Origin: Streptomyces durocortorensis
Lineage (GTDB): Bacteria > Actinomycetota > Actinomycetes > Streptomycetales > Streptomycetaceae
Direction of reading: 5' to 3'
DNA: 64,000 nucleotides
Assembly: GCF_031760065.1 (NCBI RefSeq)
Contig: NZ_CP134500.1
Coordinates: 3,844,001 to 3,908,000, forward strand
The position numbers were made by a program, and so were the translations under genes. Positions 1 to 45,714 of this stretch are shown here, piece by piece (position 1 is the stretch's first letter; each line of letters opens with the position of its first letter). The notes below the pieces were generated by a model. The model was not told where the DNA came from. It ran no database searches and was given only the letters and a program-made list of their open reading frames with translations.

Positions 1-2
1 GC

Positions 3-3000: not shown

Positions 3001-3566
3001 AGGAGATGGAGAGCGCCTACAAGCGCATCGAGGTCGCCGCGAAGAACACCGACACCCGCGAGCACGACATCGCGGACTCGGACGACTACTTCCAGTACCA
3101 CGGCGGCATGGTGGCCACCGTGCGCGCGCTCAAGGGCACGGCCCCGGAGGCGTATATCGGGGACTCCACCCGGCCCGAGACCGTCCGCACGCGCACGCTG
3201 GTCGAGGAGACGTCCCGCGTCTTCCGCGCGCGGGTCGTCAACCCGAAGTGGATCGAGGCGATGCGCCGCCACGGCTACAAGGGCGCGTTCGAGCTGGCGG
3301 CCACGGTGGACTACCTCTTCGGGTACGACGCGACGACGGGCGTCGTCGCGGACTGGATGTACGACAAGCTCACCGAGACGTACGTGCTCGACCCGGAGAA
3401 CCGCCAGTTCCTCCAGGAGGCCAACCCCTGGGCCCTGCACGGCATCGCCGAACGCCTGCTGGAGGCCGAGTCGCGCGGCATGTGGGCCAAGCCGGACCCG
3501 GCGGTTCTCGAAGCGCTGCGCCAGGTGTACCTGGAGACGGAAGGGAACCTGGAGGGCGAGGACTGA
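3..3566 (+). CDS. cobN: Cobaltochelatase subunit CobN, 5' end outside window
   Basis: This is the large ATP-dependent subunit that, with CobS and CobT (or ChlI/ChlD-type partners), inserts cobalt into hydrogenobyrinic acid a,c-diamide in aerobic cobalamin synthesis in the cytosol. The reading frame is open from base 3, so the gene begins upstream; the visible part is about 1187 residues against roughly 1200 or more for the family. The first visible stretch (RYANPSRVDLDGLPELLDG) is coding and precedes the first in-frame start-like codon, so that codon is not the gene start. Typical CobN/BchH segments follow: ALVLSAYPTKHSRIGNAVGLD, a histidine-rich HLGKHGNLEWLPGK segment, and the GGMVATVRALKG and FGYDATTGVVADWMYDKL segments near the C-terminus. 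It ends with TGA, followed by a pyrimidine tract and a hairpin shared with the convergent defence gene. Cobalamin riboswitch control, if present, would lie outside the window. Confidence 0.95.
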   Translation, partial: ARASEGPVSYRYANPSRVDLDGLPELLDGVDLVVVRLLGGVRAWQEGLDAVLATGRPVVVLTGEQAPDAQLMAASTVPIGIAAEAHAYLAHGGPANLEQLARFLSDTVLLTGHGFEPPAPAPAWGPLEREAREVPEGAPTVAVLYYRAHHMSGNTAFVDALCTAVENAGARPLPLYVASLRTPEAELIDELRAADAIVTTVLAAGGTKPAEASAGGDDESWDAGALTALDVPILQALCLTSPRSAWEENDEGVSPLDAATQIAVPEFDGRLITVPFSFKEIDEDGLPAYIPDAERAARVAGIAVRHAKLRNIPNAEKKIALVLSAYPTKHSRIGNAVGLDTPASAVALLRRLRAEGYDFGPEEEIPGLVSGDGDELIYALIEAGGHDQEWLTEEQLARNPVRIPAADYRRWFATLPEELRDAVERHWGPAPGEMFVDRSANPEGDIVLAALRRGNLLILIQPPRGFGENPIAIYHDPDLPPSHHYLAAYRWIAASAEDNGFGADAMIHLGKHGNLEWLPGKNAGLSAACGPDAALGDLPLIYPFLVNDPGEGTQAKRRVHATLIDHLVPPMARADSYGDIARLEQLLDEHAQIAAMDPAKLPAIRAQIWTLIQAAKLDHDLGVEDRPEDEGFDDFIMHLDGWLCEIKDVQIRDGLHVLGNPPAGNDRVNLVLAVLRARQIWGGTASLPGLREALGLDESAATRTAADAIEEQARALVQAMDDADWDPAAVASVAAGLPDAVADILTFAATEVVPRMAATTDELTHAVHALNGGFVPAGPSGSPLRGLVNVLPTGRNFYSVDPKAVPSKLAWETGQALADSLLTRYRTDNGDWPTSVGLSLWGTSAMRTAGDDIAEAFALLGIRPVWDDASRRVTGLEPIPYEELGRPRIDVTLRISGFFRDAFPHTVGLLDDAVRLAASLDEPAERNYVRAHTQADLAEHGDERRATTRIFGSRPGTYGAGLLQLIDSRDWRTDADLAEVYTVWGGYAYGRELDGRPAREEMESAYKRIEVAAKNTDTREHDIADSDDYFQYHGGMVATVRALKGTAPEAYIGDSTRPETVRTRTLVEETSRVFRARVVNPKWIEAMRRHGYKGAFELAATVDYLFGYDATTGVVADWMYDKLTETYVLDPENRQFLQEANPWALHGIAERLLEAESRGMWAKPDPAVLEALRQVYLETEGNLEGED

Positions 3567-3569
3567 CAC

Positions 3570-3610
3570 TCCTCCTCTTTCTCCTCTTCCTCTTCCTCTT
3601 TTTCCTCCTC
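3570..3610. repeat. 41-nt pure pyrimidine tract
   Basis: Every base from 3570 to 3610 is C or T (repeats of CTCCT/CTTCCT) just after the cobN stop codon, between two convergent genes. On the opposite strand it is a pure purine run. I see no coding role. It could form a triplex or act together with the adjacent hairpin in ending transcription; that is inference. Confidence 0.8.
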
Positions 3611-3652
3611 GATCCCTGCCGCAGGCATCCGCCTCAGGTTCCGGCAGGGATC
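3611..3652. terminator. Hairpin between convergent cobN and caspase-STAND gene
   Basis: GATCCCTGCC at 3611-3620 is repeated inverted as GGCAGGGATC at 3643-3652, a perfect 10-bp stem with a 22-nt loop. It overlaps the last codons and stop (3634-3636) of the minus-strand gene and lies 45 nt after the cobN stop. It can serve as a bidirectional terminator; there is no U tract on the plus side beyond the preceding pyrimidine run. Confidence 0.6.
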
Positions 3653-6600
3653 GGGGTCGGGAAGACGAAGCTGAACGGGCCGGTCGCGGACGGGGCGGGC
3701 GCGGCGGCGAGGCCGGGGCAGACCCGCCGGAAGGGTACGCCGGGGGCGATCGCCGCCCATTCGGCGGCGGTGGGGTTGGCCGCGGCGAGCCGGCAGGCGA
3801 GGGCGACGGGATCGCGGAGTGCCGTACTGAGCTGCGCGATCTTCCAGCGGGTGGTGGTGCCCGGGGACTCGTACGTGGTCAGGAAGGCGCCGTCGGACGA
3901 AACGGCGAGCGCCTGGGCCCTCGCGCCCAGGGTGAGTGACGTGACAGCGTGTGGTGCCGCGGGATCCGACACGTCCCACACGAGCACCTGGGCACCGGAG
4001 CCGCTGCCCGTGAGCAGCCTGCCGTCCCCGCCGAACGAGTAGGGCCCTTCGCCGGAGCCGTTGCGGAGCCGGCTCAGGAACCGGGGACGCCTGGGGTCCG
4101 ACACGTCGAAGAGGATTCCGCCGCGCTTGCCCATCACGAGAGTCCTGCCGTCGGGGGCGAACGCGTATGGGGCGGCGTACACAAGGGCCGAGTCCGAGTC
4201 GGGATCGGGAAGATCCGACAGCCGCTCTGGGGTGCGCGGGTCGGTGACGTCGTACAGGGCGGAGCCGACCGCCAGGATTCGGCCCTTGGGGGCGAACAGG
4301 ACCACCGGGATTCCGGTCCTCGTCCTGACGGCGCTCAGCCGCCGGGGCCTGCCGGGCGAGGAGAGGTCCCACAGCGTGACCCCCCTTTCCGTGCCGACCG
4401 CCATCAGGTCACCCTGGGCCGAGAAGGCCAGGGAGAGGCCACGGTTGCTGGACGGGGCGACGTTCAGCCGGAACTCCCGGACCGGGTGACCGGGGTCCTT
4501 CACATTCCACAGGGTCACGGTTCCCCCGGGGCCCTCGACCGCGAGGCGGTCACCGTCCGCCGAGAACCATTGCCCGTGGTAGGTGAGGTGGCCCGGCCCG
4601 TCGATCCGGATCACGCCGGCCGGCCGGCCCGCGGAGCGCCCCGTCAGCGGGATCAGACTCAGCTCACGCTCGGCCGTGGCCCCAGCCAGCAGCCGCCCTT
4701 CGGGGGCCAGGGCGTACGGGATGCCGTCCTCGAACCACCGGTAGTAGTCCCGGGCGGGCGGCGCGACGGGCCGCCCGGCCACGGTGGGGGCCAATCGGTC
4801 CGTCAGCGACCAGAAGAGCACGGAATCGTTGCCGTCCCCGCTGGCCAAGGTGCGGCCGTCGGGGGAGAAGGCCAGTGCCGAGACCGTGCTGTCGTGTCCG
4901 GTGAAGACGGCGGAACGTACGGGCCCGCCCGGGGAGATGCTCCACAGGGTCGCCGTGTGGTCCGTGCTTCCTGTCGCGAGAAGGCGGCCGTCCCCGCTGA
5001 GCGCGACCGACTCCACCGGGCCGCCATGGCCGCTGATCACCGCGGTGCGGCGAGCATCGGCAGGCCGGGCGACGTCCCACAACCGGACCTGGGCGTCGCT
5101 GGACGCGACGGCCAGGGTGCGCCCGTCCCGGCTGATGGCCAGCGCGCGCACCGGGCCGCCGGTGCCGTCGAGTACGCCGAGACTCCGCGGGCGGTCGGGG
5201 TCCTCGACGTCCCACAGCTCCACCGTCCCGTCCTGCCATCCCAAGGCCAGGACGGCACTGTCCGGTCCGAAGGCGATCGCCTTGACGTTGCTTTCGCGCT
5301 GCGGGAGCGAGGCGCGGGCGCGGGCAGAGCCGCGCCCCGCTACCACCGACCAGAGCCGCGTCTCCCCGGCGGTGGAGATGACCAGCGTCCGGCCGTCAGG
5401 GCTGAACTCCGACGCTTCCATGGACTCTCGCAACCGCAGCGGCATTCTGCCCCGGGGCTGTGGGCGGCTCCGGTCCGTGAGGGAGAACCTGCCCAGGGAG
5501 GCGCCCTGGTCCGCACCGGTGAGGAGCAGGGACCGGCCGTCGCCGATCCAGACCGCGGGGTTCCCCCAGCCGATGAGGCTCTGCTCCGTCACGACGTCGG
5601 CCAACTCCGCCGGCTCACCGGGGCCGGACGTGTCCCACAGCCCGACGACACCGGTGCCCCCGCCCACCGCGAGCGTCCGGCCGTCGTCGCTGTAGGTCAG
5701 CGAGTCGACCCCGCCCGTCGCGTCGGCGGAGCCCGCGTACTGCGTCGCGGCCAGCACGTCCATCAGCGTCCTCCGGCTCTGCGGAGAAGGGGCTCCGCGG
5801 TACGCGGCTACGGCGAGGAGCAGGGCCGATCTCGGGTCGGTGCCGATGTTCGCGCGGGCGGAGGCCTGGAGTTGGCGGTTCTGGGCGGTCTCGCCGTTGG
5901 CGCGGGCGTTCGACCGCTGCTGGTAGGCGATACCCGTGGCGACCAGTGCCGCGCACAGCGCCAGCACCGCCCCTTGCAACGTTCGTTTCAGCCGCCGTGT
6001 GCGGCGGGCCTCCCGCTCTCGTTCCGCGCCTGCCGCCCGCGCGCCGGCGTGCAGGAACTCGCTATCCAGGGCGCGGTCCAGCCGGCCGCGGTCCAGCAGG
6101 TCGCGGGCGCTCTGCAGCCGTGTTCCCCGGTAGAGGTAGGTCTGGTCGCGGCCCGCGGCCTCCCAGGCGTCGGTGTCGTCGGCGATCCGGCGGCGGAGGA
6201 CGAGTTCGGTGCGGTCCTCGTCGATCCAGTCCCGAAGCTGGTCCCAGGCACGCAGCAGTGCCTCGTGGGAGATCTGGGCGCTGTCCTGGTCGAGGGTGAC
6301 GAGCCGGGCGTCGACGAGCCGGTCGAGAAGGCGTCGCTCGCTCACGGGGGACGACAGCTCGTCGATCCGGATCCGGCGCCGTGTCGCGTCCTGGGAGGCG
6401 TCCGGGCTGACGTGCACCATCCGCAGCAGCAGTTTGCGCAGGGCGGTTCTCCCAGCACCGTCGAGATCCTCGTACAGCTTGTCCGTCGTGGTGGTGACGG
6501 ACCGCCAGATGCCGCCGGTGGCCTGGTACCCGGCGAGAGTGAGGGCGGCGCCACTGCGGCGCAGCCAGGTCTCGCGCAGGGCGTGCGCGAGGAAGGGGAG

Positions 6601-8088
6601 CCCGGCCTGCCCGGCCGGACCGCCTCGCAGGTCGTGCAGCAGGCGGTCGGTGAGTCCGGCCTGGAGGCTGAGTCCGGCGGCCTCGGCGGGATGTTCGACA
6701 GCGGCCCGCAGATCGTCCTCGGTCATCGGCGTCACGTTCAGCCGGTGATGGTCGAGGGCGCGTACGAGACCGGGGTGGTCGAGGCAGCTGCCGTAGTGGT
6801 CGGCCCGCAGGCTCAGCACGATGCGAGGCCCGTCCTGGTGCGGCGATGTCAGGAGGGTGATGAAGCGGGCGCGTTCCCCGGAGTCGCGGCAGCGGGTGAA
6901 CACCTCCTCGAACTGGTCGACGATCAGGAGTCGGCAGACCGGGCGGTCGCGCGGGGGTGGCGGAAAACGGCCCCGGTCGAGCGTGGCGCGCACCTCCTTC
7001 GGGTCCCGGCCGGTGGCCCGCGCCCACAGCCCGGCCAGGGTGCGCATCGGATGCGGGCCGGGCGCGGGCAGCAGGAGGGCGGGCCAGGCTTCCGGGCGGC
7101 GCTCCAGGCGGGCGAGGAGCCCGGCCCGCAACAGCGACGACTTGCCGACGCCGGACGCTCCCACGAGGACCAGCGGAGAGGGGTCGTCACGCACCACAAG
7201 AGCGGTGAGGTGGTCGGCGAGCGCGTCACGGCCGTGGAAGTAGCCGGTCTCCTCGGCCGGGAAGGGCTTCATGCCCGGGTACGGGCAGGGCACGTCGGCG
7301 GGCGGGGCGGCGTCCGGGCCGGGGGCTGCGGAGTAGGCGGCATTGGGAGCGAGGACCAGTCTGTCGAGTGTCCCCTCGCTCTGCCGCCGCGGATGGATGG
7401 GCCCGTCGCTGAACGTACGCGCGAGCGCGGTGTGCAGGTGATCCAGGGTGAGTTGCGGAGGGCCGGAGGGGTCGCCCGACGTGAGGAGCTCCAGGAGCTG
7501 ACCGCCGAACAGCGTGTGCCGCTCGCCCTCGGGCGCGTACGAGGGGGCGAAGTACGAGGCGGAGCTGAGCAGGAAGCTTCCACCGGGGCGCACGGACACG
7601 AACGGGTCGGCCTGCCGGTCGCTGCCGTCGGGCACGGTGGCCCGCCCGGAGAAACAGCAGTCCAGGACGACGGCGCTGCCCCCGGCCGCGCGGCCCAGGA
7701 GCCCCTTGAGCGTGTGGTAGGGGACGGCGCCGGAGACCTGCCCGGCGGAGCGGCTGGTACGGGTGGCGAGATAGAGCTCGTCGTCGGGGCCGAGCAGCCC
7801 GTGCCCCGCGTAGAGGAGCAGTACCACCCCGGTGGCCTCGCCGACGACCCGCTCCACGATGGCGACGACGTCCTCGGGACGGGCGTCGGCGGGGACACGG
7901 TGGACCCGGCCTTCGGCCATACCGCAGACCGCGTGCAGCACGCGCTGAAGGTCGTCGAGTGTCGTGTCGACGGACGGCAGGTCCGGCAGCTCCGAGCCGG
8001 TGGCGTGATGCCCGGTGCCGACGAGGATCGCGTGGGCCCCGGGCGTGGCAAGGTCGCCGGGACTTGGCGGAGGCAGGGGGCGGGGCAT
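3634..8088 (-). CDS. Caspase-like peptidase / nSTAND1 NTPase / WD40 conflict protein
   Basis: A 1484-residue multidomain protein predicted to act as a switchable death or defence effector. Residues about 15-245 form a caspase-like (peptidase C14) domain with the His of LLYAGHG (H96) and the Cys of VLDCCFSG (C145). Residues about 268-700 are an nSTAND1-type P-loop NTPase: the linker CPYPGMKPF, Walker A GASGVGKS (310-317), Walker B LLIVDQFEEVF. One membrane-helix-like stretch (LQGAVLALCAALVATGIAY, about residue 715) follows, then WD40 repeats to the C-terminus with blades ending VRLWDVA, ATLWSIS, VLFWSLT, TLWNVKD and TLWDLSS. It starts at an ATG that overlaps the stop of the upstream EACC1 gene by one base, so the two are translationally coupled. 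In known systems of this kind the WD40 part senses a trigger, the NTPase switches, and the peptidase kills or cleaves; the trigger here is unknown. Confidence 0.9.
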   Translation of the reverse strand: MPRPLPPPSPGDLATPGAHAILVGTGHHATGSELPDLPSVDTTLDDLQRVLHAVCGMAEGRVHRVPADARPEDVVAIVERVVGEATGVVLLLYAGHGLLGPDDELYLATRTSRSAGQVSGAVPYHTLKGLLGRAAGGSAVVLDCCFSGRATVPDGSDRQADPFVSVRPGGSFLLSSASYFAPSYAPEGERHTLFGGQLLELLTSGDPSGPPQLTLDHLHTALARTFSDGPIHPRRQSEGTLDRLVLAPNAAYSAAPGPDAAPPADVPCPYPGMKPFPAEETGYFHGRDALADHLTALVVRDDPSPLVLVGASGVGKSSLLRAGLLARLERRPEAWPALLLPAPGPHPMRTLAGLWARATGRDPKEVRATLDRGRFPPPPRDRPVCRLLIVDQFEEVFTRCRDSGERARFITLLTSPHQDGPRIVLSLRADHYGSCLDHPGLVRALDHHRLNVTPMTEDDLRAAVEHPAEAAGLSLQAGLTDRLLHDLRGGPAGQAGLPFLAHALRETWLRRSGAALTLAGYQATGGIWRSVTTTTDKLYEDLDGAGRTALRKLLLRMVHVSPDASQDATRRRIRIDELSSPVSERRLLDRLVDARLVTLDQDSAQISHEALLRAWDQLRDWIDEDRTELVLRRRIADDTDAWEAAGRDQTYLYRGTRLQSARDLLDRGRLDRALDSEFLHAGARAAGAEREREARRTRRLKRTLQGAVLALCAALVATGIAYQQRSNARANGETAQNRQLQASARANIGTDPRSALLLAVAAYRGAPSPQSRRTLMDVLAATQYAGSADATGGVDSLTYSDDGRTLAVGGGTGVVGLWDTSGPGEPAELADVVTEQSLIGWGNPAVWIGDGRSLLLTGADQGASLGRFSLTDRSRPQPRGRMPLRLRESMEASEFSPDGRTLVISTAGETRLWSVVAGRGSARARASLPQRESNVKAIAFGPDSAVLALGWQDGTVELWDVEDPDRPRSLGVLDGTGGPVRALAISRDGRTLAVASSDAQVRLWDVARPADARRTAVISGHGGPVESVALSGDGRLLATGSTDHTATLWSISPGGPVRSAVFTGHDSTVSALAFSPDGRTLASGDGNDSVLFWSLTDRLAPTVAGRPVAPPARDYYRWFEDGIPYALAPEGRLLAGATAERELSLIPLTGRSAGRPAGVIRIDGPGHLTYHGQWFSADGDRLAVEGPGGTVTLWNVKDPGHPVREFRLNVAPSSNRGLSLAFSAQGDLMAVGTERGVTLWDLSSPGRPRRLSAVRTRTGIPVVLFAPKGRILAVGSALYDVTDPRTPERLSDLPDPDSDSALVYAAPYAFAPDGRTLVMGKRGGILFDVSDPRRPRFLSRLRNGSGEGPYSFGGDGRLLTGSGSGAQVLVWDVSDPAAPHAVTSLTLGARAQALAVSSDGAFLTTYESPGTTTRWKIAQLSTALRDPVALACRLAAANPTAAEWAAIAPGVPFRRVCPGLAAAPAPSATGPFSFVFPTPIPAGT

Positions 8089-23883: not shown

Positions 23884-24057
23884 CGCGTCGAAGGCCCCGG
23901 AGGCAGGCCGCTATCGAGGCCGCCCAGCCATGTCGCCGGTGTGGACCGGGACTCCATGCCGGGTGTACCTCGTGAGACCAGGCGGCATTGGCAGTGGGCC
24001 GGGGCCCCTGGACCGGACAGCCGTGCGTGCGACCCTGAAGGGATGAGCGGAGCCCGG

Positions 24058-24765
24058 TCAGCCGGCGAAGCGCGGGACCACCAGGCCGGACTCGTAGGCG
24101 ATCACCACCGCATGGGTCCGGTTCTGCGCGCCGAGCTTGGTCAGCACGTTCCCGACGTGGGTCTTGATCGTCTCCAGGCTCACCGTGAGGGACTCCGCGA
24201 TCTCCGGATTGGAGAGCCCGGTGGCCATCAGGCGCAGTACCTCCTCCTCGCGGCCGGTCAGGGCGGCTTGCGGCAGGGCCTCCGCGGAGCCCAGTGGTCG
24301 GGCGGCGACCATGCGGCCCAGGGTGGCCGGGAAGAGAACCGCTTCGCCCGCCGCCACCACCCGGACCGCCTCGGCGATGCGGCGGACCGGGAATCGTTTG
24401 AGGATGAAGCCGCTGGCGCCCGCGCTGAGGGCGGCGGTGACGTAGTCGTCGTTCTCGAAGGTGGTGATCACCACGATCTTCGGCGGGTCGGCCACATCGG
24501 CCAGAAGCTGGCGGGTGGCCTCGATCCCGTTGCGCCGCGGCATTCGGACGTCCATCAGGACCACGTCCGGCCGCAGGCTCCGCGCCCGGTCGACCGCCTC
24601 GACGCCGTCGGCGGCCTCGCCGAGCACCGTGATCCCCGGCTGTGCGGCGAGCAGCATGCCCAGACCGCTGCGGGTCACCTCGTCGTCGTCCGCGATAAGG
24701 AGGGTGACGGCGGGGCCTGCGACCGAGGGGAGGGCCTCGCCCTCGCCCGCGCCTGATCCACTCAC
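24058..24765 (-). CDS. NarL/FixJ-type response regulator
   Basis: A 235-residue regulator with an N-terminal receiver (VTLLIADDDEVTRSGL; phospho-acceptor D72 in DVVLMDVRMP; conserved Lys in FILKRF) and a C-terminal LuxR helix-turn-helix (LTGREEEVLRLMATGLSNPE, then SLETIKTHVGNVLTKLG). The GTG start overlaps the stop of the sensor kinase gene by four bases (GTGA), so they form a coupled two-component operon. The palindrome at 26038-26055, upstream of the kinase and of the serine hydrolase genes, is a candidate binding site. A diverged fragment of this kind of gene lies at 12452-12672. Confidence 0.95.
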   Translation of the reverse strand: MSGSGAGEGEALPSVAGPAVTLLIADDDEVTRSGLGMLLAAQPGITVLGEAADGVEAVDRARSLRPDVVLMDVRMPRRNGIEATRQLLADVADPPKIVVITTFENDDYVTAALSAGASGFILKRFPVRRIAEAVRVVAAGEAVLFPATLGRMVAARPLGSAEALPQAALTGREEEVLRLMATGLSNPEIAESLTVSLETIKTHVGNVLTKLGAQNRTHAVVIAYESGLVVPRFAG

Positions 24766-26003
24766 GCCGACACCCGTACCGGCAGCCGGACGGCCAGCCG
24801 CCAGTGCTGCGTTCCCTCCGGGCCGGACCGGAACTCACCCTGCAGCAGCCGGACGCGCTCGGCCAGTCCGGGCAGACCGTGGCCGGACGTCGAGAAGGAT
24901 CCCGGGTTCGGCCCCGTACGTGCCCCGGTCCGGTTGACCACCATGAGATCCAGTCCGTCCGGTCCGGCCGCCGCCCGAACCTGGATGGGGCCGCCCACTC
25001 CGTGGCGCAGCGCGTTCGTCAGCCCCTCCTGGAGGATCCGGTACGCCGCCCGGGAGAGCGTCCCCTGTACCCGCGCCAGTTCACCCGACAGCTCTGCTTC
25101 GACCGTCGCCCCGGTGTGCCGCAGGCGTTCCAGCAGCTCGGGGAGGTCGGCCAGGGTCCGGGTCGGCGCCGTCCCGGGCTGTTCCTCACGCAGCACTCCG
25201 AGCGCGTAGTCCAGGTCCTCCAGTGCGGCACGCGTCGATTCCTCGATGCTGCGCATGGCGGCCCGCGCCGCGGCCGGATCGGCGGAGAGCACCTCGCCCG
25301 CCACCGCCGCCTGGATGGTGGCCGCCGTCAGCGTGTGCCCGATCGAGTCGTGCAACTCGTGGGCGATCCGGTTGCGTTCGGCCAGCAGCAGCTCCCGCTC
25401 GGCAGCCAGCGCGAGCCGTTCGGCCGCCGACGGCCCCAGCAACCGTGGCGCCGACCACCGCAGGGCTTTCGTGACCATTACGCAGACGGCGAGCGCCAGC
25501 AGGATGCACGCGGCGGCCGCCACCCAGCTCCACCCGCCCGACACCCGGACCGACGTACCGAACAGGCTCGCCCGCACCTCGCCGCCGAGCCAGTTCATGG
25601 GCAGGGAGAGGCCCATGATGAACAGCACCCCGCTCGCCAGTGCCCCCGTCCACCCGACGGCCACGTGCAGCACCAGCCAGAGCGGAGTCCGCCAGCGGTC
25701 GAGGCCGGGTGAACCTGAGGCCGGGCGACCGGAGACCGGGTTCGGCAGCGACACCCGCAGCAGCCGCCGGGCTGACGCGACCAGCGCTCGCCGTACGGGG
25801 CGCGCCAGTCCGGCCACGCCGACCAGCGCCGCCCAGATCAGCAGCACCAGGACGATCTGCACGCTCTCGGGGGCGGACCGCCACGACAGCGTCGGCAACA
25901 GGGCGAACGGCAGCAGCGGAAGGCTCGCCAACGCGCCGCAATAGGCGAACAGCACACCTGAGTACGTGGAGCCGCGCAGCAGCAGCCCAATTCCCCTGTT
26001 CAT
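24762..26003 (-). CDS. Sensor histidine kinase (NarL-partner, HisKA_3)
   Basis: A 413-residue membrane kinase. About four to five hydrophobic helices make up the first 190 residues with only short loops outside, as in intramembrane-sensing kinases. The dimerisation/phosphoacceptor motif is ERNRIAHELHDSIGHTLT with the phospho-His in ELHD; the ATPase part has ILQEGLTNALRHG and GHGLPGLAERVRLLQGEF. The ATG at 26003 is taken as start; nine upstream codons are possible. Partner of the overlapping regulator gene. Divergent from two serine hydrolases that it may control. The large cytoplasmic N-terminal linker contains a Pro/Ser-rich stretch (VSLPNPVSGRPASGSPG). Confidence 0.92.
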   Translation of the reverse strand: MNRGIGLLLRGSTYSGVLFAYCGALASLPLLPFALLPTLSWRSAPESVQIVLVLLIWAALVGVAGLARPVRRALVASARRLLRVSLPNPVSGRPASGSPGLDRWRTPLWLVLHVAVGWTGALASGVLFIMGLSLPMNWLGGEVRASLFGTSVRVSGGWSWVAAAACILLALAVCVMVTKALRWSAPRLLGPSAAERLALAAERELLLAERNRIAHELHDSIGHTLTAATIQAAVAGEVLSADPAAARAAMRSIEESTRAALEDLDYALGVLREEQPGTAPTRTLADLPELLERLRHTGATVEAELSGELARVQGTLSRAAYRILQEGLTNALRHGVGGPIQVRAAAGPDGLDLMVVNRTGARTGPNPGSFSTSGHGLPGLAERVRLLQGEFRSGPEGTQHWRLAVRLPVRVSA

Positions 26004-26037
26004 GGTCGCCAGTATCGCCGGGCGGCCCACCGGCGGC

Positions 26038-26055
26038 CTCCCCCGATCGGGGGAG
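26038..26055. promoter_or_regulatory. 18-bp perfect palindrome in divergent gap
   Basis: CTCCCCCGATCGGGGGAG reads identically on both strands. It lies 35 bp upstream of the kinase start and 88 bp upstream of the first serine hydrolase. Possible site for the NarL-type regulator or another dimeric factor; as a hairpin it could also act at RNA level. Confidence 0.5.
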
Positions 26056-26143
26056 CGATTTCTCCTGCTTTCCCGCGATGCGGTCAGAGGGCGCTGGAAA
26101 CAAGGATCGTGCCCCGACCAAATGATTGCTGAGGAGTTGACTT

Positions 26144-27337
26144 ATGCGTCTTCAGAAACGGCAGAGTCCTCGTTTCTCGACCCGGCAGGGCGGTCGGCGA
26201 CGAGCCTGGTCGGCGGCTGCCGCGGTGGCCGCCGGCGTCCTGGCCCTGGGTGCCGTGGCGCTGGTTCCGCCCGCCGCCTCCGGTTCCGTCGCGCCGGCTG
26301 ATGCTGCTGCCAGGCCGGACGCCGTGCAGCGGGCCCTGAACGCGCTGGTGCGCGATGACAGGATGCCTGCCGCGTTGGCGAGCGTGAAGGACCGGAGCGG
26401 CCGGGTGCGTACGTATACGGCGGGGGTCGGCGACCTGGCCACCGGCTCGAAGGTGCCCAGGGACGGCCAGGTGCGGATCGGCAGCAACACCAAGTCGTTC
26501 ACGGCGGTCGTGGTGCTGCAACTGGTCGGCGAGGGGAAGATCGACCTCGACGCGTTCGTGGACACCTACCTGCCCGGCCTCGTACGCGGGGAGGGCATCG
26601 ACGGGAACCGCATCACCGTCCGCCAGCTCCTCCAGCACACCAGCGGGCTCCCCGAGTACGGCATCCACCTCGACGACGCCGGGATCAGGAACCGGTACTT
26701 CGAGCCCCGCGAGCTGCTCGACCTCGCCCTCGAACACAAGGCCGACGCGGAACCGGGGGAGACCTGGGGGTACAGCAACACCAACTACGTCCTGGCGGGC
26801 CTGATCGTCCAGAGGGTCACCGGCCGCCCCCTCGCCGAGGAGATCGACCGGCGCATCATCAAGCGCATCGGGCTGCGCCACACGTACTTCCCCACTCCCG
26901 GCGATATGACCATCCGCGAGCGGCACCCGCGTGGCTACCACCGCAGCCCGGAGGACGGACCGCTGCGGGACTTCACGAAGATGGACCCCTCCGCGGGCTG
27001 GGCCGCAGGCCAGTTGATCTCCACCAACTCCGACCTCAACCGCTTCTTCACCGCGCTCCTCGCGGGCCGCCTCCTCCCGGCGGCCCAGCTCGCCGAGATG
27101 CGTACGACCGTCCCCGCCGGGACCTCCGGCCTCCGCTACGGGCTGGGGCTCACCAGCAGGCCGCTGTCGTGCGGCGGCGTCTACTGGGGCCACGGCGGTG
27201 ACATCGCGGGGTACGAGACGCGAGGCGGTGTCACCGACGACGGCCGCGCCGCCAGCGTCGCGGTCACCAGCATCCCGACGGACAAGAAGGCCGCACAGCA
27301 CGTGAACGACGCCGTGGACAAAGCCCTGTGCGGCTGA
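26144..27337 (+). CDS. Secreted S12 serine hydrolase (beta-lactamase/DD-peptidase family), copy 1
   Basis: A 397-residue exported protein. Basic residues, then a hydrophobic signal (about 22-45). Mature part: class C beta-lactamase/D-Ala-D-Ala carboxypeptidase fold with nucleophile motif SNTK (S114, K117), second motif YSN in WGYSNTNYVLAGL, and HGG in YWGHGGDIAGYE. Such proteins cleave D-amino acid peptides, esters or beta-lactams outside the membrane. A GGAG site lies about 9 nt before the ATG. It is followed 54 bp later by a paralogue; the 440 bp encoding residues about 26-172 are almost identical in both genes, while the rest is far more diverged. Confidence 0.92.
   Translation: MRLQKRQSPRFSTRQGGRRRAWSAAAAVAAGVLALGAVALVPPAASGSVAPADAAARPDAVQRALNALVRDDRMPAALASVKDRSGRVRTYTAGVGDLATGSKVPRDGQVRIGSNTKSFTAVVVLQLVGEGKIDLDAFVDTYLPGLVRGEGIDGNRITVRQLLQHTSGLPEYGIHLDDAGIRNRYFEPRELLDLALEHKADAEPGETWGYSNTNYVLAGLIVQRVTGRPLAEEIDRRIIKRIGLRHTYFPTPGDMTIRERHPRGYHRSPEDGPLRDFTKMDPSAGWAAGQLISTNSDLNRFFTALLAGRLLPAAQLAEMRTTVPAGTSGLRYGLGLTSRPLSCGGVYWGHGGDIAGYETRGGVTDDGRAASVAVTSIPTDKKAAQHVNDAVDKALCG
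26220..26659 (+). repeat. Near-identical 440-bp block, copy 1
   Basis: Aligns without gaps to 27471-27910 (offset exactly 1251 bp) with about eight differences, whereas the flanking parts of the two hydrolase genes differ at many positions. The sharp edges fit gene conversion, not a simple gene duplication. Confidence 0.88.
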
Positions 27338-27391
27338 ATGACGCAAACGGTGACCCGGACGACGACCCAACGATTCCTCAGGAGTTGACCT

Positions 27392-28588
27392 ATGCGTGGA
27401 CAGAAGGGGCGAATACTCCGCTCGACGAGCCGGCAGCACGGCACGCGGCGACAGATCCTGCCCGCCGCAGCCGCGGTGGCCGCCGGCGTCCTGGCCCTGG
27501 GTGCCGTGGCGCTGGTTCCGCCCGCCGCCTCCGGTTCCGTCGCCCCGGCTGATGCTGCTGCCAGGCCGGACGCTGTGCAGCGGGCCCTGAACGCGCTGGT
27601 GCGCGATGACAGGATGCCTGCCGCGTTGGCGAGCGTGAAGGACCGGAGCGGCCGGGTGCGTACGTATACGGCGGGGGTCGGCGACCTGGCCACCGGCTCG
27701 AAGGTGCCCAGGGACGGCCAGGTGCGGATCGGCAGCAACACCAAGTCGTTCACGGCGGTCGTGGTGCTGCAACTGGTCGGCGAGGGGAAGATCGACCTCG
27801 ACGCGTTCGTGGACACCTACCTGCCCGGTCTCGTACGGGGGGAGGGCATCGACGGGAACCGCATCACCGTCCGCCAGCTCCTCCAGCACACCAGCGGACT
27901 CCCCGAGTACAGCAACCACCTCGGGGACGACGTTCGCTACTACGCCCCCCGTGAACTGCTCGCCACAGCACTCCGGCACCCGGCCGAATTCGTCCCCGGG
28001 AAGAGCTGGAAGTACAGCAACACCAACTACGTCCTGGCGGGCCTGATCGTCCAGAAGGTCACCGGCCGCCCTCTGGCCGACGAGATCGACCGGCGTGTCG
28101 TCCGCCGCGCCGGGTTGCGTCACACCTACTTCCCCGCTCCCGGTGACGCGAGGATCCGAGAGCCTCACCCCCACGGCTACCACCAGGAATCGAAGGAGAG
28201 GCCGCTGCGCGACATCACGGAGATGGACCCCTCCTGGGGCTGGGCGGCAGGGCAGATGATCTCCACCAGCACCGACCTGAACCGCTTCTTCGGGGAGCTG
28301 CTCTCCGGCCGCCTCCTGCCCCCGGCCCAGCTCGCCCAGATGCGCTCCACCGTCCCAGCCGAAGCGACCTTCGGCCCAGGCGCCCGCTACGGACTTGGAC
28401 TGGTCAGCAGGCCACTGCCGTGCGGCGGCCTCTCCTGGGGCCACGGCGGTAGCTTCCCGGGGTACGAGACCCGTGGCGGCGCCACCGACGACGGCCGCGC
28501 CGCCAACGTCGCTGTCACCATGCAGCTGACCGGCGAGGCGGCCCGGGGACGCCTCGAACGCGCCGTGGACACCGCCTTGTGCCGCTGA
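27392..28588 (+). CDS. Secreted S12 serine hydrolase, copy 2
   Basis: A 398-residue paralogue of the preceding gene with the same signal region, SNTK nucleophile motif, WKYSNTNYVLAGL and SWGHGGSFPGYE. Length and domain order are the same, but after residue 172 it differs substantially (for example SNHLGDDVRYYAPRELLA against YGIHLDDAGIRNRYFEPREL), so substrate range may differ. The upstream AGGAGTTGAC before its ATG also mirrors copy 1, meaning the duplication included the ribosome site. The 54-bp gap has no terminator, so one message is likely. It ends 88 bp before a convergent HNH gene. Confidence 0.92.
   Translation: MRGQKGRILRSTSRQHGTRRQILPAAAAVAAGVLALGAVALVPPAASGSVAPADAAARPDAVQRALNALVRDDRMPAALASVKDRSGRVRTYTAGVGDLATGSKVPRDGQVRIGSNTKSFTAVVVLQLVGEGKIDLDAFVDTYLPGLVRGEGIDGNRITVRQLLQHTSGLPEYSNHLGDDVRYYAPRELLATALRHPAEFVPGKSWKYSNTNYVLAGLIVQKVTGRPLADEIDRRVVRRAGLRHTYFPAPGDARIREPHPHGYHQESKERPLRDITEMDPSWGWAAGQMISTSTDLNRFFGELLSGRLLPPAQLAQMRSTVPAEATFGPGARYGLGLVSRPLPCGGLSWGHGGSFPGYETRGGATDDGRAANVAVTMQLTGEAARGRLERAVDTALCR
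27471..27910 (+). repeat. Near-identical 440-bp block, copy 2
   Basis: Partner of 26220-26659; see that entry. A direct repeat of this length and identity is also a substrate for deletion that would fuse the two hydrolase genes in frame. Confidence 0.88.
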
Positions 28589-28676
28589 ATCCCGCCGAGG
28601 GCGTTTCGTGTCTGTGGGTACGACGTGATGTCGCCCCCGCAGCCACACCCGCGCACCGCCGCCGCGCTCGACTACC

Positions 28677-29570
28677 TCAGACGGTCGTGGCGGGACGTGG
28701 GCTGCCGTGGAAGACCTGGCTGGTGTGCCAGGAACGGTGGGCGGCGGCGATGGGGCGGACGCCCGGCTGGGGGCCGATGAGCGGTCGGCCGGCGAGCGTG
28801 GTGACGTGCTCGCGGGCGGCGGTGCTGTGGCCGACGAAGCTCCGCGAGACCAGGATGCGGTGGCCCTCACCGAGACCGAGTACGCCCTTGTCGAACAGCT
28901 TGTGGTGCAGCGAGCACAGGCACAGCCCGTTCTCGACGTCGTCCGGTCCGCCGAACGCCCACCAGCGCACATGGGCGGCCTCAAGCCCGACCGGCACCGC
29001 GCCGATCCTGCCGTCGTACCCGCAGAAGGCGCACTGGTACTCGTACGCCGTCAGGACCATCTCCCGCATCCGCCGGTCCCGCTGTCTGCGCGCGGCCGAG
29101 AGTTGTCCGGCCTCGGCCTCCTCCAGCTCCAAGCCGACGGCCTCGCACAGCTCGCCGTGGAGGGAGGGCGGGAAGTTCAGATCGAGCAGCACCCGCGCCA
29201 TCCGGCGGGCAAGGGACGGCTCGCGCCGCAGCGCCGCCCGTAGCTCCGGCGCCAGCCGCCCGGCGGCACCGGTTGCGCGCAGTTCCCTGACCCCGGTCCC
29301 GGGGCTGCCCGGCCCGCGCTCGGTGCGCACCTCCCAAACGCCGTCACTCACCAGGTGATGGAACGGGTAGGCGGGAGTCGTCCGCGTACCGGGACCGTAT
29401 TCGGCGAGCAGTCCCCGCAGGTCCTCCTCCACAGCGCTGTACCGCAGCTCGTCATCGGCGTTCTGCTGGAACCGGCTGAGCGCGTACAGGAACAGCAGTG
29501 GCTTGTGCGGAGCCCGCGTCCCGTTCCTCGTCCACTGTCTCAACTGCGCGGCCCGCTCGACCCAGTTCAT
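28677..29570 (-). CDS. Phosphorothioate-dependent type IV restriction endonuclease (SBD-HNH)
   Basis: A 297-residue nuclease. Residues about 1-165 match the sulfur-binding domain (SBD) of ScoMcrA/SprMcrA-type enzymes: APHKPLLFLYALSRFQ, the TTPAYPFHHLVSDGVWEV pocket motif, and LDLNFPPSLHGELCEAVGL. The C-terminal part is an HNH nuclease (CAFCGYDG, EAAHVRWWAFGGPDD, NGLCLCSLHHKLFDKG) with two CxxC-type zinc pairs. Family members cut near phosphorothioated DNA and so reject DNA from dnd-modified hosts; this implies the host does not itself use that modification. The ATG at 29570 is chosen because the domain begins there; the 51 extra codons upstream look non-coding. It lies just outside the tRNA-Ser repeat-bounded island and next to other defence-type genes. 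Confidence 0.85.
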   Translation of the reverse strand: MNWVERAAQLRQWTRNGTRAPHKPLLFLYALSRFQQNADDELRYSAVEEDLRGLLAEYGPGTRTTPAYPFHHLVSDGVWEVRTERGPGSPGTGVRELRATGAAGRLAPELRAALRREPSLARRMARVLLDLNFPPSLHGELCEAVGLELEEAEAGQLSAARRQRDRRMREMVLTAYEYQCAFCGYDGRIGAVPVGLEAAHVRWWAFGGPDDVENGLCLCSLHHKLFDKGVLGLGEGHRILVSRSFVGHSTAAREHVTTLAGRPLIGPQPGVRPIAAAHRSWHTSQVFHGSPRPATTV

Positions 29571-29740
29571 GGTCGACGATCGTAGTGGCGGCTCGTCGCG
29601 GCGCTCGGCCGTGGGCATCGCCCCAGTGGCCGGGCGGTCACCAGGCCGCGATGCGGAGCCCGGTGACCCGGGCACGACGCCGTGGATGCGGGAGAGGGTG
29701 AAGCCCCGACCGTCGTCGCGCATAGGGCCCCATCAACGCC

Positions 29741-29849
29741 GAAGGGCCCCACCGCGAACGGTGGGGCCCTTCGACGTATTGCCCGGTGAGAGCAATGGCG
29801 GAGGATACGAGATAACTCGTGAGGGGTTGCCCCCAACACGCTTTCCAAG
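29741..29849 (-). repeat. Left direct repeat: truncated tRNA-Ser copy plus terminator
   Basis: This 109-bp segment matches 32414-32525 with a 3-bp deletion in the T-loop (GATAACTCG for GATTCGAACTCG) and a few changes in the hairpin loop and stem. It contains the rho-independent hairpin (29741-29754 / 29759-29772), the encoded CCA, acceptor 3' strand, T arm, variable arm and part of the anticodon arm up to TTTCCAAG, and then similarity stops. It cannot encode a working tRNA. It has the form of the second attachment site of an element that integrated at the tRNA-Ser gene. The remainder of the 29571-29972 gap shows nothing else I can support. Confidence 0.85.
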
Positions 29850-29972
29850 TCTTCGCCCGGCCGTTCTGGACGATACAAGAACGTCCTGACCTGCAGTTCC
29901 GCCGACCCGGATGGGGTTTCTGAACGTTTCTGTACGTCGGTGAATGCAACCAGAACTGCAACCGCGCATCGG

Positions 29973-30395
29973 CTACTTGCCCGGTTCGGGCCCGTACCAC
30001 TGCAGTGCCTGACCGGTGACGGCGGCGATGCAGTCGAAGTCACGGTCGCGGTGCAGCAGAGTCAGTCCTTGAAGCTCTGCGGTGGCCGCCACGATGAGGT
30101 CAACAGCTCCAGCGCTGCGGTGCTGCCCGCGCTTGGTGAGTACTTCCTGGACCTGCCATGCGCGGTCGTGGGCGCGGTCGTCGACGGGCACCCAGCCGAA
30201 GAGTAGCCGTATGTCCTCGATGCCCTTCGCCCGGTCTGCGGCGGACCGGGCACTGTAGAAGAATTCGAGCTCCGTGATGGGGCAGGTCGCGATTAGCCCA
30301 GCTGCTGCGGCTTGGTCCCAGCCGTAGTGCTCGGCGTCAGCGCGCAGAAACCGTGCGAGCGCGCTGGTGTCGATCAGGAACTGTGCCGCGTTCAC
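29973..30395 (-). CDS. vapC: VapC-type PIN-domain toxin
   Basis: A 140-residue PIN-domain ribonuclease with all expected acidic residues: D9 (FLIDTSALARF), E42/E44 (ITELEFF), D99 (SAGAVDLIVAATA), D117 and D119 (LLHRDRDFD). VapC toxins cut tRNA or rRNA with Mg2+ and are held inactive by VapB. The ATG at 30395 overlaps the stop of the antitoxin gene by four bases, the standard arrangement. It is located at the left edge of the island bounded by the tRNA-Ser repeats, where a toxin-antitoxin pair may stabilise the element or give anti-phage protection. Confidence 0.93.
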   Translation of the reverse strand: MNAAQFLIDTSALARFLRADAEHYGWDQAAAAGLIATCPITELEFFYSARSAADRAKGIEDIRLLFGWVPVDDRAHDRAWQVQEVLTKRGQHRSAGAVDLIVAATAELQGLTLLHRDRDFDCIAAVTGQALQWYGPEPGK

Positions 30396-30607
30396 CTGCG
30401 GTAGTTCCGCTTATCTTCGAAGAGATCCAGGTCGAAGGCGCCTTCGTCGGCCACTGTCCGCAGCCGCGCGAGCGCGAGCGCGCGCCGTCGGTTCTCCAGA
30501 ACCTCGCGCAGGGCGGTGTTGACGGTTTCCTTCTTGGTGCTGGTGCCCAGAGCCTTGGCCACGTCGGCGACCAGGCCGTCGTCGAGATCGATCACAGTCC
30601 GTGTCAT
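30392..30607 (-). CDS. vapB: VapB-type antitoxin
   Basis: A 71-residue antitoxin. The N-terminal part MTRTVIDLDDGLVADVAKA, with TKKETVNTALREVL, is the ribbon-helix-helix DNA-binding domain; the C-terminal tail (FDLDLFEDKRNYRR) is the toxin-binding arm. The ATG at 30607 has GGAGG 8 nt upstream. Operon order is vapB then vapC with overlap. The AT-rich leader with inverted AGATAT/ATATCT arms is the probable autoregulatory operator. Confidence 0.93.
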   Translation of the reverse strand: MTRTVIDLDDGLVADVAKALGTSTKKETVNTALREVLENRRRALALARLRTVADEGAFDLDLFEDKRNYRR

Positions 30608-30621
30608 CGATGCACCTCCAT

Positions 30622-30650
30622 AGATATCCGATGTGCTACTGAGTATATCT
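30622..30650. promoter_or_regulatory. AT-rich dyad upstream of vapBC
   Basis: AGATAT (30622-30627) and ATATCT (30645-30650) are inverted arms 17 nt apart, 15-43 bp upstream of the vapB ATG. The block is much lower in GC than its surroundings and contains TATATCT, usable as a -10 region. Consistent with binding by the VapB ribbon-helix-helix. Confidence 0.5.
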
Positions 30651-30688
30651 TGCGAGGTGTCGTATGTGTGAGTCGCAGAGAACGGCGC

Positions 30689-32083
30689 CTACGGTGAGTC
30701 ATCGTCCGGTCGGCAATCGGGCAGCATGCGGATCTCGTCGCCCAACTCGGGGGCCGAGATCTCATGACCCCGGGCGAAGCTCTTGAACACTGCAGGCCCG
30801 GTGCGTCGATCGACCGAGGAGGGGTAGCAGATCTCTATCTGCTTGCATTGATCGCACAGGAGGCTGGCCACGAGGGGCGCCAGGGCGAGTGGACCCTCTG
30901 AACTCAGCACGTAGAGCGTGTCGTTGGCGACAGGCTCGGCCCATGTGAAGGACTGACACTCGAAATCGGGGTGGTCCCCCGTTACGCGCTGCATGACTAC
31001 TTCAAAGGCTCGTGGTCTCGGCCGATAGCTGCACGAAATGGCGAGAAGCCACGGGGCGCCGCTGAGGAATGCGGCCTTTACCAGGGCCCGTTCGAGCTGC
31101 GGTCTGAACTCGACCATGCGTAGAGCGGATTCCTGCGGACTCCGGGGCTTGTCGCCGTGAGATGTGCGGTTGCGTTCGTTCTGTAGGGCCCGGAGGTCTG
31201 TGAGGATCCCCGGGGTCTCGCCGTCGTCCTGGAGAGCGTTCCGGAGGCCGGGGATTAGGTCGGGCTGGGTGTCGGCGATCGGTCCGAGGTGCTGGTCGAG
31301 CCAATTCGTCCACGTCCCGAACGTGGTGCGCTGGAGGCCGTTTCGCAGTGCAGCCAGCCCCCGCTGCGCTCGATCTCGCTGATCACTGTCGCCGGTGACA
31401 CGGCCATCAATCTGTCCTCGAAGCAGCGCCGCCCCGGTGACCGTGAGGGTGATGGCGAGAATCTCGGCAGCCTCGAGCATTGCTTCGTACTGGTCCTTCG
31501 GGGCGTGTGCCCGTTGGAGTGCTCGCACAGCACGGGCAACGGGATGTGGCAACGATTCCCGGGCGTTCATCAGTGCTTGCGAGGTCCGGGGAGGCTGACT
31601 GCCGTCTTCCCGGTGCGCGATGCGGTCCGGGTCAGTCGGCGACGTCTGGGGAGTTGTCACGGGGGTAATCGGGGGCTGTGGGGCGCGCCTGGCGGACAGT
31701 GTCGGCCCACCAGGGAGAGGTGGCCGTGCCATTGTTGGTCCAGCGGTTCGGGTGGGCGCCCGTGGTGCCGTGCTGGGTGGCTCCGCCTCATGCTGCTGCC
31801 TGCGCCACCGCCATCGGCGGAAGAGCAGCCGAAGCCAAGTTGGGAATATGCCGAACAGTGCGATGAACACGACGATGGCGAGGAGGGTGTCCAGCCATGT
31901 CGGTAGAGGGCTCGGTTCTTTACTGCTCGGAATCGAGGCGGCTGCAAGGACCCCCCAGCCGATGGTCATCCAGAACGCCCAGTCCCGGTGCACGGGGCTG
32001 TCAAACAGTCTGAGCACCGCGTTGGGCCGCTTCGGCAGGGCAGAAGGCGGAGGTGACGACGGGGCTCTGGCGCCACTGTCCAT
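30689..32083 (-). CDS. Two-helix membrane protein with HEPN-like RxxxxH motif, unknown function
   Basis: A 464-residue protein I cannot assign to a named family. Two membrane helices at about 35-52 and 63-88 anchor the N-terminus. A Pro/Thr-rich linker (about 100-165) follows, then a mostly helical region (170-345) containing LRALQNERNRTSHGDKP at 298-313. R304-x4-H309 in that setting is the signature of HEPN ribonucleases or HEPN-derived folds. The last part (345-464) has a CDQC pair (410-413) and the segment AVFKSFARGH (431-440). Encoded inside the tRNA-Ser repeat-bounded island beside vapBC, 81 bp upstream of vapB on the same strand. Reduced GC and less biased codon use than the core genes suggest transfer. 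A membrane-tethered RNase acting in phage defence is inference. Confidence 0.7.
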   Translation of the reverse strand: MDSGARAPSSPPPSALPKRPNAVLRLFDSPVHRDWAFWMTIGWGVLAAASIPSSKEPSPLPTWLDTLLAIVVFIALFGIFPTWLRLLFRRWRWRRQQHEAEPPSTAPRAPTRTAGPTMARPPLPGGPTLSARRAPQPPITPVTTPQTSPTDPDRIAHREDGSQPPRTSQALMNARESLPHPVARAVRALQRAHAPKDQYEAMLEAAEILAITLTVTGAALLRGQIDGRVTGDSDQRDRAQRGLAALRNGLQRTTFGTWTNWLDQHLGPIADTQPDLIPGLRNALQDDGETPGILTDLRALQNERNRTSHGDKPRSPQESALRMVEFRPQLERALVKAAFLSGAPWLLAISCSYRPRPRAFEVVMQRVTGDHPDFECQSFTWAEPVANDTLYVLSSEGPLALAPLVASLLCDQCKQIEICYPSSVDRRTGPAVFKSFARGHEISAPELGDEIRMLPDCRPDDDSP

Positions 32084-32408
32084 ACACCCATGGTGCCTCC
32101 GGACGCCGTCCGAGAACAGCGTCGTAACACTCAGTTGATGCTTTGTGAGCCTTGAGTGACAGGACGGTCCGGCGGCCCCAAGCGGTCGAGGGGCGGCAAG
32201 GTTGTGACTCCGGGCGCCTCAGTTCCGTACCGAAGCCCATGTCTCGGGAGGCCGCCGCGCTGCGGGTTTCCTCTTGCTGGGTGCGGAGGCGTCCAGCCGT
32301 TCCTCGTTCGCGGCGTCATGGCAGGTCGGGGAGCAATGGCTGTGCCGCGGCAGCGAGGGCGCACGTCGACGCGTCGCTGTCGTGCAGGCGACCCGGCCGA
32401 GTCGGAGA
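32084..32408. other. Gene-free stretch inside the island
   Basis: No frame here has recognisable protein features, and there is no clear ribosome site. It is the right arm of the island between the membrane-protein gene and the tRNA-Ser terminator. An integrase or excisionase, if the element had them, is not detectable here. Confidence 0.5.
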
Positions 32409-32450
32409 ACGTTGAAGGGCCCCACCGCAAGCGGTGGGGCCCTTCAACGT
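32409..32450 (-). terminator. Terminator of tRNA-Ser (right repeat)
   Basis: ACGTTGAAGGGCCCCACCGC (32409-32428) pairs perfectly with the inverse at 32431-32450 around AA, a 20-bp stem. It follows the tRNA-Ser gene by 19 nt. The same hairpin occurs in the left repeat at 29741-29772. Confidence 0.9.
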
Positions 32451-32525
32451 ATTGCCCGGTGAGAGCAATGGCGGAGGATACGAGATTCGAACTCGTGAGG
32501 GGTTGCCCCCAACACGCTTTCCAAG
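32414..32525 (-). repeat. Right direct repeat of the island
   Basis: 112 bp shared with 29741-29849, comprising the terminator hairpin and the 3' 57 bases of the intact tRNA-Ser up to the anticodon arm. Same orientation as the left copy; together they enclose about 2.56 kb. Confidence 0.88.
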
Positions 32526-32556
32526 CGTGCGCCCTAGGCCACTAGGCGAATCCTCC
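32469..32556 (-). tRNA. tRNA-Ser(GGA)
   Basis: Read on the minus strand: acceptor GGAGGAT pairs with ATCCTCC, D arm GCCTAGTGGCCTAGGGC, anticodon loop TTGGAAA between CACGC and GCGTG (anticodon GGA, reading UCC/UCU), a long class II variable arm TTGGGGGCAACCCCTCA, T loop GTTCGAATC, discriminator G and an encoded CCA (32471-32469). 88 nt including CCA, normal for tRNA-Ser. Its 3' half is repeated at 29741-29849, showing that this gene served as an integration site and was kept intact. Confidence 0.95.
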
Positions 32557-32683: not shown

Positions 32684-32780
32684 GGGCGTCAGCCCCTCAC
32701 GTGGCGCTATCTGACTGAACTCCCCCAGGGCCGGAAGGCAGCAAGGGTAGGTTGGCTCTGGCGGGTGCGTGGGGGGCCCT
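32684..32780 (+). ncRNA. ffs: Signal recognition particle RNA (small bacterial type)
   Basis: Contains the conserved domain IV loop: CAGGGCCGGAAGGCAGCAAGGGTAG (as 32726-32750; asymmetric AGCA and GGAA tetraloop). The outer helix is formed by CCCCTCACG near 32693 and CGTGGGGGG near 32768. The RNA binds Ffh and targets nascent membrane proteins. It lies between tRNA-Ser and dnaX, as in many actinobacteria. Exact ends are estimates from the pairing. Confidence 0.9.
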
Positions 32781-32899
32781 TTGTGTTCCCTGGAGGGTGC
32801 CCCGTCGTGGCCCCCTGGGGCTGCCCGTCGTGTTCGCTGGGAGTGCCCGCGTGGGCCGTGTGGGGCCGGGTGTCGGTCCGCCCCGATAACCTCGTAGAT

Positions 32900-45642: not shown

Positions 45643-45714
45643 AGCGGGTGACAGGAATTGCACACTGCGCCTTCCCCCTGGAAGGGGGATGTTCTACTAC
45701 TGAACTACACCCGC
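45643..45714 (-). tRNA. tRNA-Gly(TCC)
   Basis: Minus strand: acceptor GCGGGTG with CACCCGC, D arm GTTCAGTAGTAGAAC, anticodon stem TCCCC/GGGGA with loop CTTCCAG (anticodon UCC), T loop AATTCCT-type, discriminator U, CCA not encoded. 72 nt. Reads GGA/GGG glycine codons. Confidence 0.88.

Follow-up and report, generated by a model that had tools for sequence, protein, structure and literature searches.

We analysed a 64-kb stretch of the Streptomyces durocortorensis genome, hereafter the window, in which a tRNA-Ser(GGA) gene adjoins a small group of genes bounded on the far side by a damaged copy of the tRNA. The intact tRNA-Ser(GGA) gene, called by ARAGORN and Rfam, occupies 32469–32556 on the minus strand, a correction to an original prediction made from the sequence alone. 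Its 3′ half and the adjacent terminator (32409–32450) form the right attachment (att) copy (32408–32525, minus strand), and a left att copy (29735–29849, minus strand) likewise consists of a terminator and the 3′ half of a tRNA-Ser, with the T-loop TCG missing; both were delimited by alignment and folding. Only three genes, all read from the minus strand, lie between the copies: vapC (29973–30395), encoding a predicted PIN-domain toxin (PF01850, 52 bits); vapB (30392–30607), encoding its presumed antitoxin (PF09957, 42 bits); and TM-HEPN (30689–32083), encoding a 464-residue protein with N-terminal membrane helices, a HEPN-like domain (RNRTSH at residue 304) and a C-terminal beta domain with a CxxC motif. 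Beyond the left copy lie an HNH nuclease gene of the phosphorothioate-dependent type (28677–29570, minus strand) and the remnant end of a helicase/WYL gene (29667–29732, minus strand). We find that 28.67–32.40 kb very probably holds the decayed remnants of two integrative elements, lying in tandem beside the tRNA-Ser(GGA) 3′ end: the locus holds two att copies, the site is empty in relatives, sibling islands bear an integrase, and the integrase and the tRNA-side arm have been lost from the window.

The two att copies, in the same orientation, align with 94% identity over 79 nucleotides and then 93% over a 45-nucleotide block, the three T-loop bases having been lost between the blocks. The tRNA part is present in these two copies only, with no third copy in the 7.30-Mb single-contig genome; one further genomic place matches ~33 nucleotides of the terminator palindrome and nothing else. 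Identity of the left copy stops in the anticodon region, at the same breakpoint as in left-type copies of other genomes, so that the left copy has neither the 5′ side of the anticodon stem nor any of the sequence that precedes it. The repeat pair and both defects of the left copy had been recognised in the original prediction, which placed that copy at 29741–29849 (109 bp); the location is right, but the extent falls 6 bases short at the terminator end. A direct repeat of the tRNA 3′ end thus bounds the insert, as in tRNA-targeted islands. Despite their sequence differences, both terminators fold as a 19-bp hairpin (−41.8 and −40.6 kcal/mol), and the left one, downstream of vapC, could stop transcription of the cargo genes. 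As an observation in its own right, ~230 bp resembling the left repeat and its arm side occur as an attachment-like piece in two large Streptomyces plasmids, NZ_CP108633 and NZ_CP109560.

Among the cargo genes, vapC and vapB are adjacent and overlap by 4 bp, as expected of a VapBC pair of PIN toxin and VapB antitoxin, and the NCBIfam VapC model scores 38 bits, below its cut-off of 80; PADLOC offers no model for vapC. An imperfect palindrome upstream of vapB (AGATAT...ATATCT, 30622–30650, by eye) is a possible VapB operator. The GC content of vapC, vapB and TM-HEPN is 65–66%, compared with 71–76% in the six neighbouring genes computed.

Comparison with relatives sets the limits of the insert. 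The left backbone (24011–28667), a histidine kinase gene and two serine hydrolase genes, was identified by blastn of the relatives' tRNA-side sequence (~88%) and from aligned junctions, and it runs directly into tRNA-Ser in genomes G088 and G139. G088 is collinear with the window to 28667, continues for ~45 bp and then enters the terminator and tRNA-Ser; G139 is collinear to 28608 and enters the terminator and tRNA-Ser at once. These junction pieces are 86% and 87% identical to the window, respectively, and no further repeat copy is present in the ~9 kb examined at either site. Because the backbone joins tRNA-Ser directly in these genomes, ~28.67–32.40 kb of the window is extra DNA, and relatives provide the empty sites expected for a tRNA-targeted island (G088 and G139 for the whole stretch, G029 for its inner part). 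The extra stretch consists of module 1 (the HNH gene and the helicase/WYL remnant), the left att copy, and module 2 (vapC, vapB and the membrane protein gene). The original prediction treated the HNH gene as the old flank; it is instead an earlier accreted module, absent from the G088 and G139 junctions, and the left boundary drawn there is the inner one, because the HNH gene belongs to module 1. In G099 the backbone runs to 28599 and is followed by a repeat and different contents.

The HNH protein of module 1 (~297 residues, from a start codon at 29570 chosen in this analysis; the mechanical open reading frame extends to 29723) matches PF13391 and scores 337 bits with NF045808, the model for phosphorothioate-dependent endonucleases, above the curated cut-off of 180. 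The helicase/WYL gene encodes 785 residues in G029 (Helicase_C_3 and WYL) and is whole in both G029 and G019, where it stands between the HNH gene and the next repeat or tRNA. Its last ~20 codons are left in the window (tblastn to residues 764–785, 68%), and G029, G019 and G106 cease to be homologous to the window at the DNA level near 29724, ~10 bases before the left repeat. Judged by its gene order, G029 holds module 1 without module 2: HNH, helicase/WYL and one intact tRNA-Ser, with vapBC and the membrane protein absent. Strains without the island were anticipated in the original prediction, and G029 is one, with G088 and G139 lacking the entire 28.67–32.40 kb. The order in G076 resembles that of the window (HNH fragments, repeat, arm, vapC, vapB, tRNA; no membrane protein gene), and transfer of composite tandems is described in a section of PMC5704250, which would allow both modules to have arrived in a single step as one composite element. 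Module 1 stands alone at the tRNA in G029, however, and vapBC lies near the tRNA with no HNH gene in the examined sequence of G063 and G133, so that a single arrival appears improbable and we favour two remnants laid down one after the other.

With six recombinase reading frames from sibling loci as tblastn queries, nothing credible for an integrase was found in the window, its other frames included; the two best hits (E of 0.009 and 0.07) fall on the repeats, one of the queries having its own repeat within its reading frame. The window's own genome has no match to the integrase family at E ≤ 1e-30 either. As the integrase is absent from the window, and its family from the genome at that threshold, we consider the window to hold a remnant and not an active island. 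The picture of vapBC beside an unfamiliar membrane protein, with no integrase between the copies, therefore stands as originally drawn. In sibling islands the end of the integrase or the tRNA-side arm occupies the place that corresponds to 32084–32407, and neither was found there by tblastn or by the arm pattern.

Left-type copies are accompanied by a direct pair of heptamers, TGMRACS, spaced 12 bp start to start and lying within the insert, ~95 bp (in a few cases ~117 bp) away from the end of the core, and on the tRNA side a similar heptamer pair ends ~3 bp before the core. In the window the distal pair reads TGCAACC-AGAAC-TGCAACC (29945–29963, plus strand); the pattern has no other match in the 64 kb (0.04 matches expected), and the pair sits at the same place as beside the left-type copies of relatives. 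Allowing one mismatch at most, the distal pair accompanies 19 of 27 left-type copies (window included) and the tRNA-side pair 12 of 28 full tRNA copies (the window's own copy counted in the 28), while single-base shuffles of the distal flanks gave the pair in 8 of 5400 cases. A slightly looser pattern returns the tRNA-side pair at 37 of 100 sites, 31 of these exact; it is absent from the window. The paired heptamers have the features expected of arm-type integrase sites, and would presumably be bound as such.

Arm type follows the integrase phylogeny. In a tree of 22 integrases, with clade and class labels (A, A2, B, C) assigned in this analysis, the GAGACG, GAGACT and motif-less groups each form one side of a branch, and GAGACC and GCAACC arms are intermixed within clade B; five changes of arm type are needed on the tree, against a mean of 12.0 for shuffled labels, and a value as low as five was reached in no shuffle out of 200. 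The integrase of G109, which has no known arm, was placed outside all groups in this test, and the motif-less group has a GGACAA-type repeat at the same spacing (by eye). Because a clade-B-type distal arm is kept and the tRNA-side pair is gone, module 2 most likely arrived with a clade-B integrase and cannot excise itself now. A non-autonomous element that can still be mobilised in trans, by an integrase encoded on some other element at this tRNA, has possible counterparts in G063 (~3.5 kb), G131 (~3 kb) and G029 (~4.8 kb), where a short stretch without an integrase has an arm pair at each end; for the window it is very unlikely, as the tRNA-side arm is missing, the left core is short of 3 bases and the genome lacks the integrase family at the threshold above.

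The tRNA-Ser(GGA) site was then compared across relatives, with 121 genomes among the matches listed and the tRNA stretch taken from part of them. The resulting table covers 100 of 104 loci, since L123 (G134), L129 (G116), L170 (G132) and L195 (G137) failed the tRNA pattern, with 1.2–20 kb of sequence upstream of the tRNA per site (median 9 kb), a limit by which more distant repeats are missed. The right anchor, a small signal recognition particle RNA (32688–32784, plus strand, RF00169) followed by dnaX, is common to relatives among the matches listed. At 28 of the 100 sites a tyrosine integrase (PF00589), always of the same family and either intact or reduced to a remnant, is found no more than 1.5 kb from the tRNA; at 7 more it occurs only farther upstream. 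Of the 121 genomes, 68 match this family at E ≤ 1e-30, whether here or in another part of the genome. A second repeat copy occurs at 20 sites and the helicase/WYL gene, leaving aside the short remnant in the window, at 12; the HNH gene occurs at 10, vapC lies near the tRNA at 9, and TM-HEPN is found at one, the window itself (E ≤ 1e-5). No left neighbour of the tRNA is conserved within 3 kb, with 36 of the 100 sites being singletons and 46 falling in one chained cluster. Examples of islands with an adjacent integrase carry RepSA (G021), Prim-Pol (G005 and G116) or FtsK-type genes (G019), and two large genes of such islands (L129, L134) have no Pfam match. By these sequence counts the site is an insertion hotspot. 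Separately, a very small island is apparent at L042 (G029; 3094–4299), where two repeat copies enclose ~1.0 kb that has a matching arm pair at either end and in which no integrase was found.

These data support the central claim of the original prediction, an element inserted at a tRNA 3′ end whose mobility genes were lost, through the empty sites and the integrase-bearing siblings, and the cargo is far from fixed in relatives (of 100 sites, 9 have vapC near the tRNA and only one, the window, has the membrane protein). It was also expected that larger inserts here would pair an integrase with the same cargo; the tyrosine integrase is indeed present, and the cargo recurs in part, as vapBC with integrase remnants at G103 and G025 and, outside the 100-site table, as an 82-residue piece of TM-HEPN (49% identical) in the G025 island, which also has an intact integrase. 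Partial duplication of the tRNA or gene conversion, with the genes brought in by homologous recombination and no integrative element, would accord with the missing integrase and the damaged left copy, and is scarcely credible given that copies sharing this core and breakpoint flank unrelated inserts in other genomes, many with an integrase, and that the distal arm is where it is expected. Plain tRNA duplication was tried and rejected on the ground that copies with the same breakpoint flank different inserts in other genomes.

The decayed tandem could then have formed as follows, the order of events being our inference. An element with the HNH nuclease and helicase/WYL genes would have entered beside the tRNA, and a second element with clade-B-type arm sites would have followed by tyrosine-integrase recombination, with a core running from the anticodon loop to the terminator, rebuilding the tRNA and leaving the displaced 3′ half at 29735–29849. 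Deletions would then have removed the integrase together with the tRNA-side arm, and almost the whole helicase/WYL gene, such that self-excision is no longer possible, with vapBC and TM-HEPN retained. Several observations weigh against this account. Module 1 shows no att copy at its outer edge, which leaves a gap in the case that it arrived in the same way; the clade of the lost integrase is deduced from one arm, as the window holds no integrase relic; two arm types are mixed in clade B and the two ends of the G081 island differ; and 39 of the 100 sites have none of the surveyed features in the sequence examined.

Decayed tRNA islands and tandem accretion are a known kind, as set out in part of PMC5704250. 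The cis-mobilizable elements (CIMEs) treated there resemble the window in being remnants at a tRNA gene that have lost the integrase and can lie in tandem, and in the window too the integration and transfer genes are gone, with only vapC, vapB and TM-HEPN left between the copies. CIMEs as described in that part keep both att sites, however, and we do not class the window as one, because its left core is short of 3 bases and its tRNA-side arm is missing. Actinomycete integrative and conjugative elements (AICEs) use a tyrosine integrase to enter tRNA 3′ ends, according to a section of PMC3218068, and some sibling islands share their RepSA, Prim-Pol or FtsK-type genes; the window island has no replication, transfer or integrase gene. 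A section of PMC11195616 describes an island hotspot adjacent to a tRNA-Ser, with different islands in several Streptomyces and none in one strain; this is like the present site, although the anticodon, arm sites and neighbouring genes are not given in the section, which may concern another tRNA. The module 1 HNH protein passes the model for endonucleases that bind phosphorothioated DNA and in this respect resembles ScoMcrA and other phosphorothioate-dependent HNH endonucleases, as covered in part of PMC3009677; it is ~297 residues long and lies outside the interval of the original prediction. The decayed tRNA island itself is therefore of an ordinary kind, and the new details are the att architecture and the TM-HEPN family.

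In TM-HEPN, the R, N and H of the RNxxxH motif are invariant in 26 of 26 aligned rows, in agreement with the HEPN pattern Rx4-6H with N, D or H after the R. In the domain model one helix spans 134–149 and the next 157–183, placing R145, N146 and H150 at a helix end and the start of the following loop, which is where a section of PMC3710099 locates the motif of active HEPN domains. The domain is modelled as a helical bundle that aligns with HEPN toxin structures, and its fold may be of the HEPN type. From the invariant motif and this possible fold, TM-HEPN is best read as a putative membrane-anchored HEPN ribonuclease (RNase). It shares the motif and its placement with HEPN RNases such as the HepT-type toxins considered in that section, may resemble them in its helical bundle, and differs from the HepT type in its two N-terminal membrane helices, its C-terminal CxxC beta domain and the absence of an adjacent nucleotidyltransferase partner. 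No Pfam family exceeds its cut-off for the 464-residue protein, the whole-protein structure model gives no usable fold match, a profile searched against PDB sequences returns no E-value below 0.03 and nothing HEPN, and a profile search with 21 homologues gained one protein and no named family; the family is thus not named by the libraries searched (Pfam, PADLOC, NCBIfam). Two further results speak against the RNase assignment: HEPN-type Pfam models give weak matches only (DUF4145, E of 0.014; HEPN_RiboL-PSP, E of 0.38; each in 2 of 21 members), and PADLOC has no TM-HEPN model.

What TM-HEPN does may be approached through the cargo of sibling islands. Seven clade-B integrases are in the tree, and in six cases we examined which genes lie between the integrase and the tRNA, or, for G010, between the integrase and a repeat copy. 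PADLOC recognises genes in this interval in five of the six: G025 has type I restriction-modification, G010 and G035 each have a type I restriction subunit or a piece of one, G134 has a type IIG/ISP enzyme, and G028 has a SAVED-nuclease effector of the type found in cyclic-oligonucleotide-based antiphage signalling systems (CBASS). The gene at this place in G081 has no PADLOC match, nor does that of G084, an island with an integrase remnant and a type II restriction pair just past it. At other islands of the site PADLOC finds a helicase fragment (G118) and PDC-S27 proteins (G006, G007 and G079), with no match for the single genes of G022 and G069. TM-HEPN sits near the tRNA, and this position, which restriction or CBASS-type genes hold in five of the six siblings, suggests a defence role; the link is no more than suggestive, because the genes were chosen by size and place and without a control set.

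We propose, as a tentative model, that VapBC stabilises or guards the locus and that TM-HEPN acts as a membrane-tethered RNase against invading genetic elements. With similar reserve, the Streptomyces tRNA-Ser(GGA) gene may serve as a docking site for clade-B integrases, with their paired GAGACC/GCAACC arms, whose elements carry interchangeable defence cassettes between integrase and tRNA, and TM-HEPN may have been a membrane-tethered RNase defence gene in that slot before the integrase was lost. A role as a membrane signalling or stress protein, in which the HEPN-like domain does something else, is a real if minority possibility and compatible with the island explanation. Homologues occur in varied contexts, one at L037 (duplicated as L108) adjoining an upstream PP2C phosphatase gene (3411–4163 of L037) and another at L036 downstream of a kinase-TPR gene (3106–7065), with no partner gene common to all; PADLOC's lack of a model points the same way, as does the absence of a tRNA-Ser repeat from the examined flanks of five named relatives. 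The invariance of RNxxxH in every row, and its placement as in active HEPN domains, argue instead for an RNase.

The tRNA-Ser(GGA) site obeys a readable rule: the core extends from the anticodon loop to the terminator, paired arm sites with 12-bp spacing stand on both sides, and the arm type goes with the integrase clade. This rule lets Streptomyces genomes be parsed at tRNA-Ser(GGA) into element ends, layers and lost integrases, and the genes found at the site make a small set of defence candidates, headed by TM-HEPN.

Three minor observations concern other parts of the window. Positions 1–3566 have a homologue within 9 kb of tRNA-Ser in G089 and G096, and for this reason 3.6–24 kb may be further accreted DNA. 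A tRNA is called by Rfam at 45643–45714 (minus strand, 53.5 bits) and is not listed by ARAGORN. The adjacent PF00144 serine hydrolase genes at 26144–27337 and 27392–28588 (plus strand) encode proteins with a long identical stretch in the N-terminal half (by eye) and differ in the remainder, and the pair looks like a tandem duplication with recent gene conversion.

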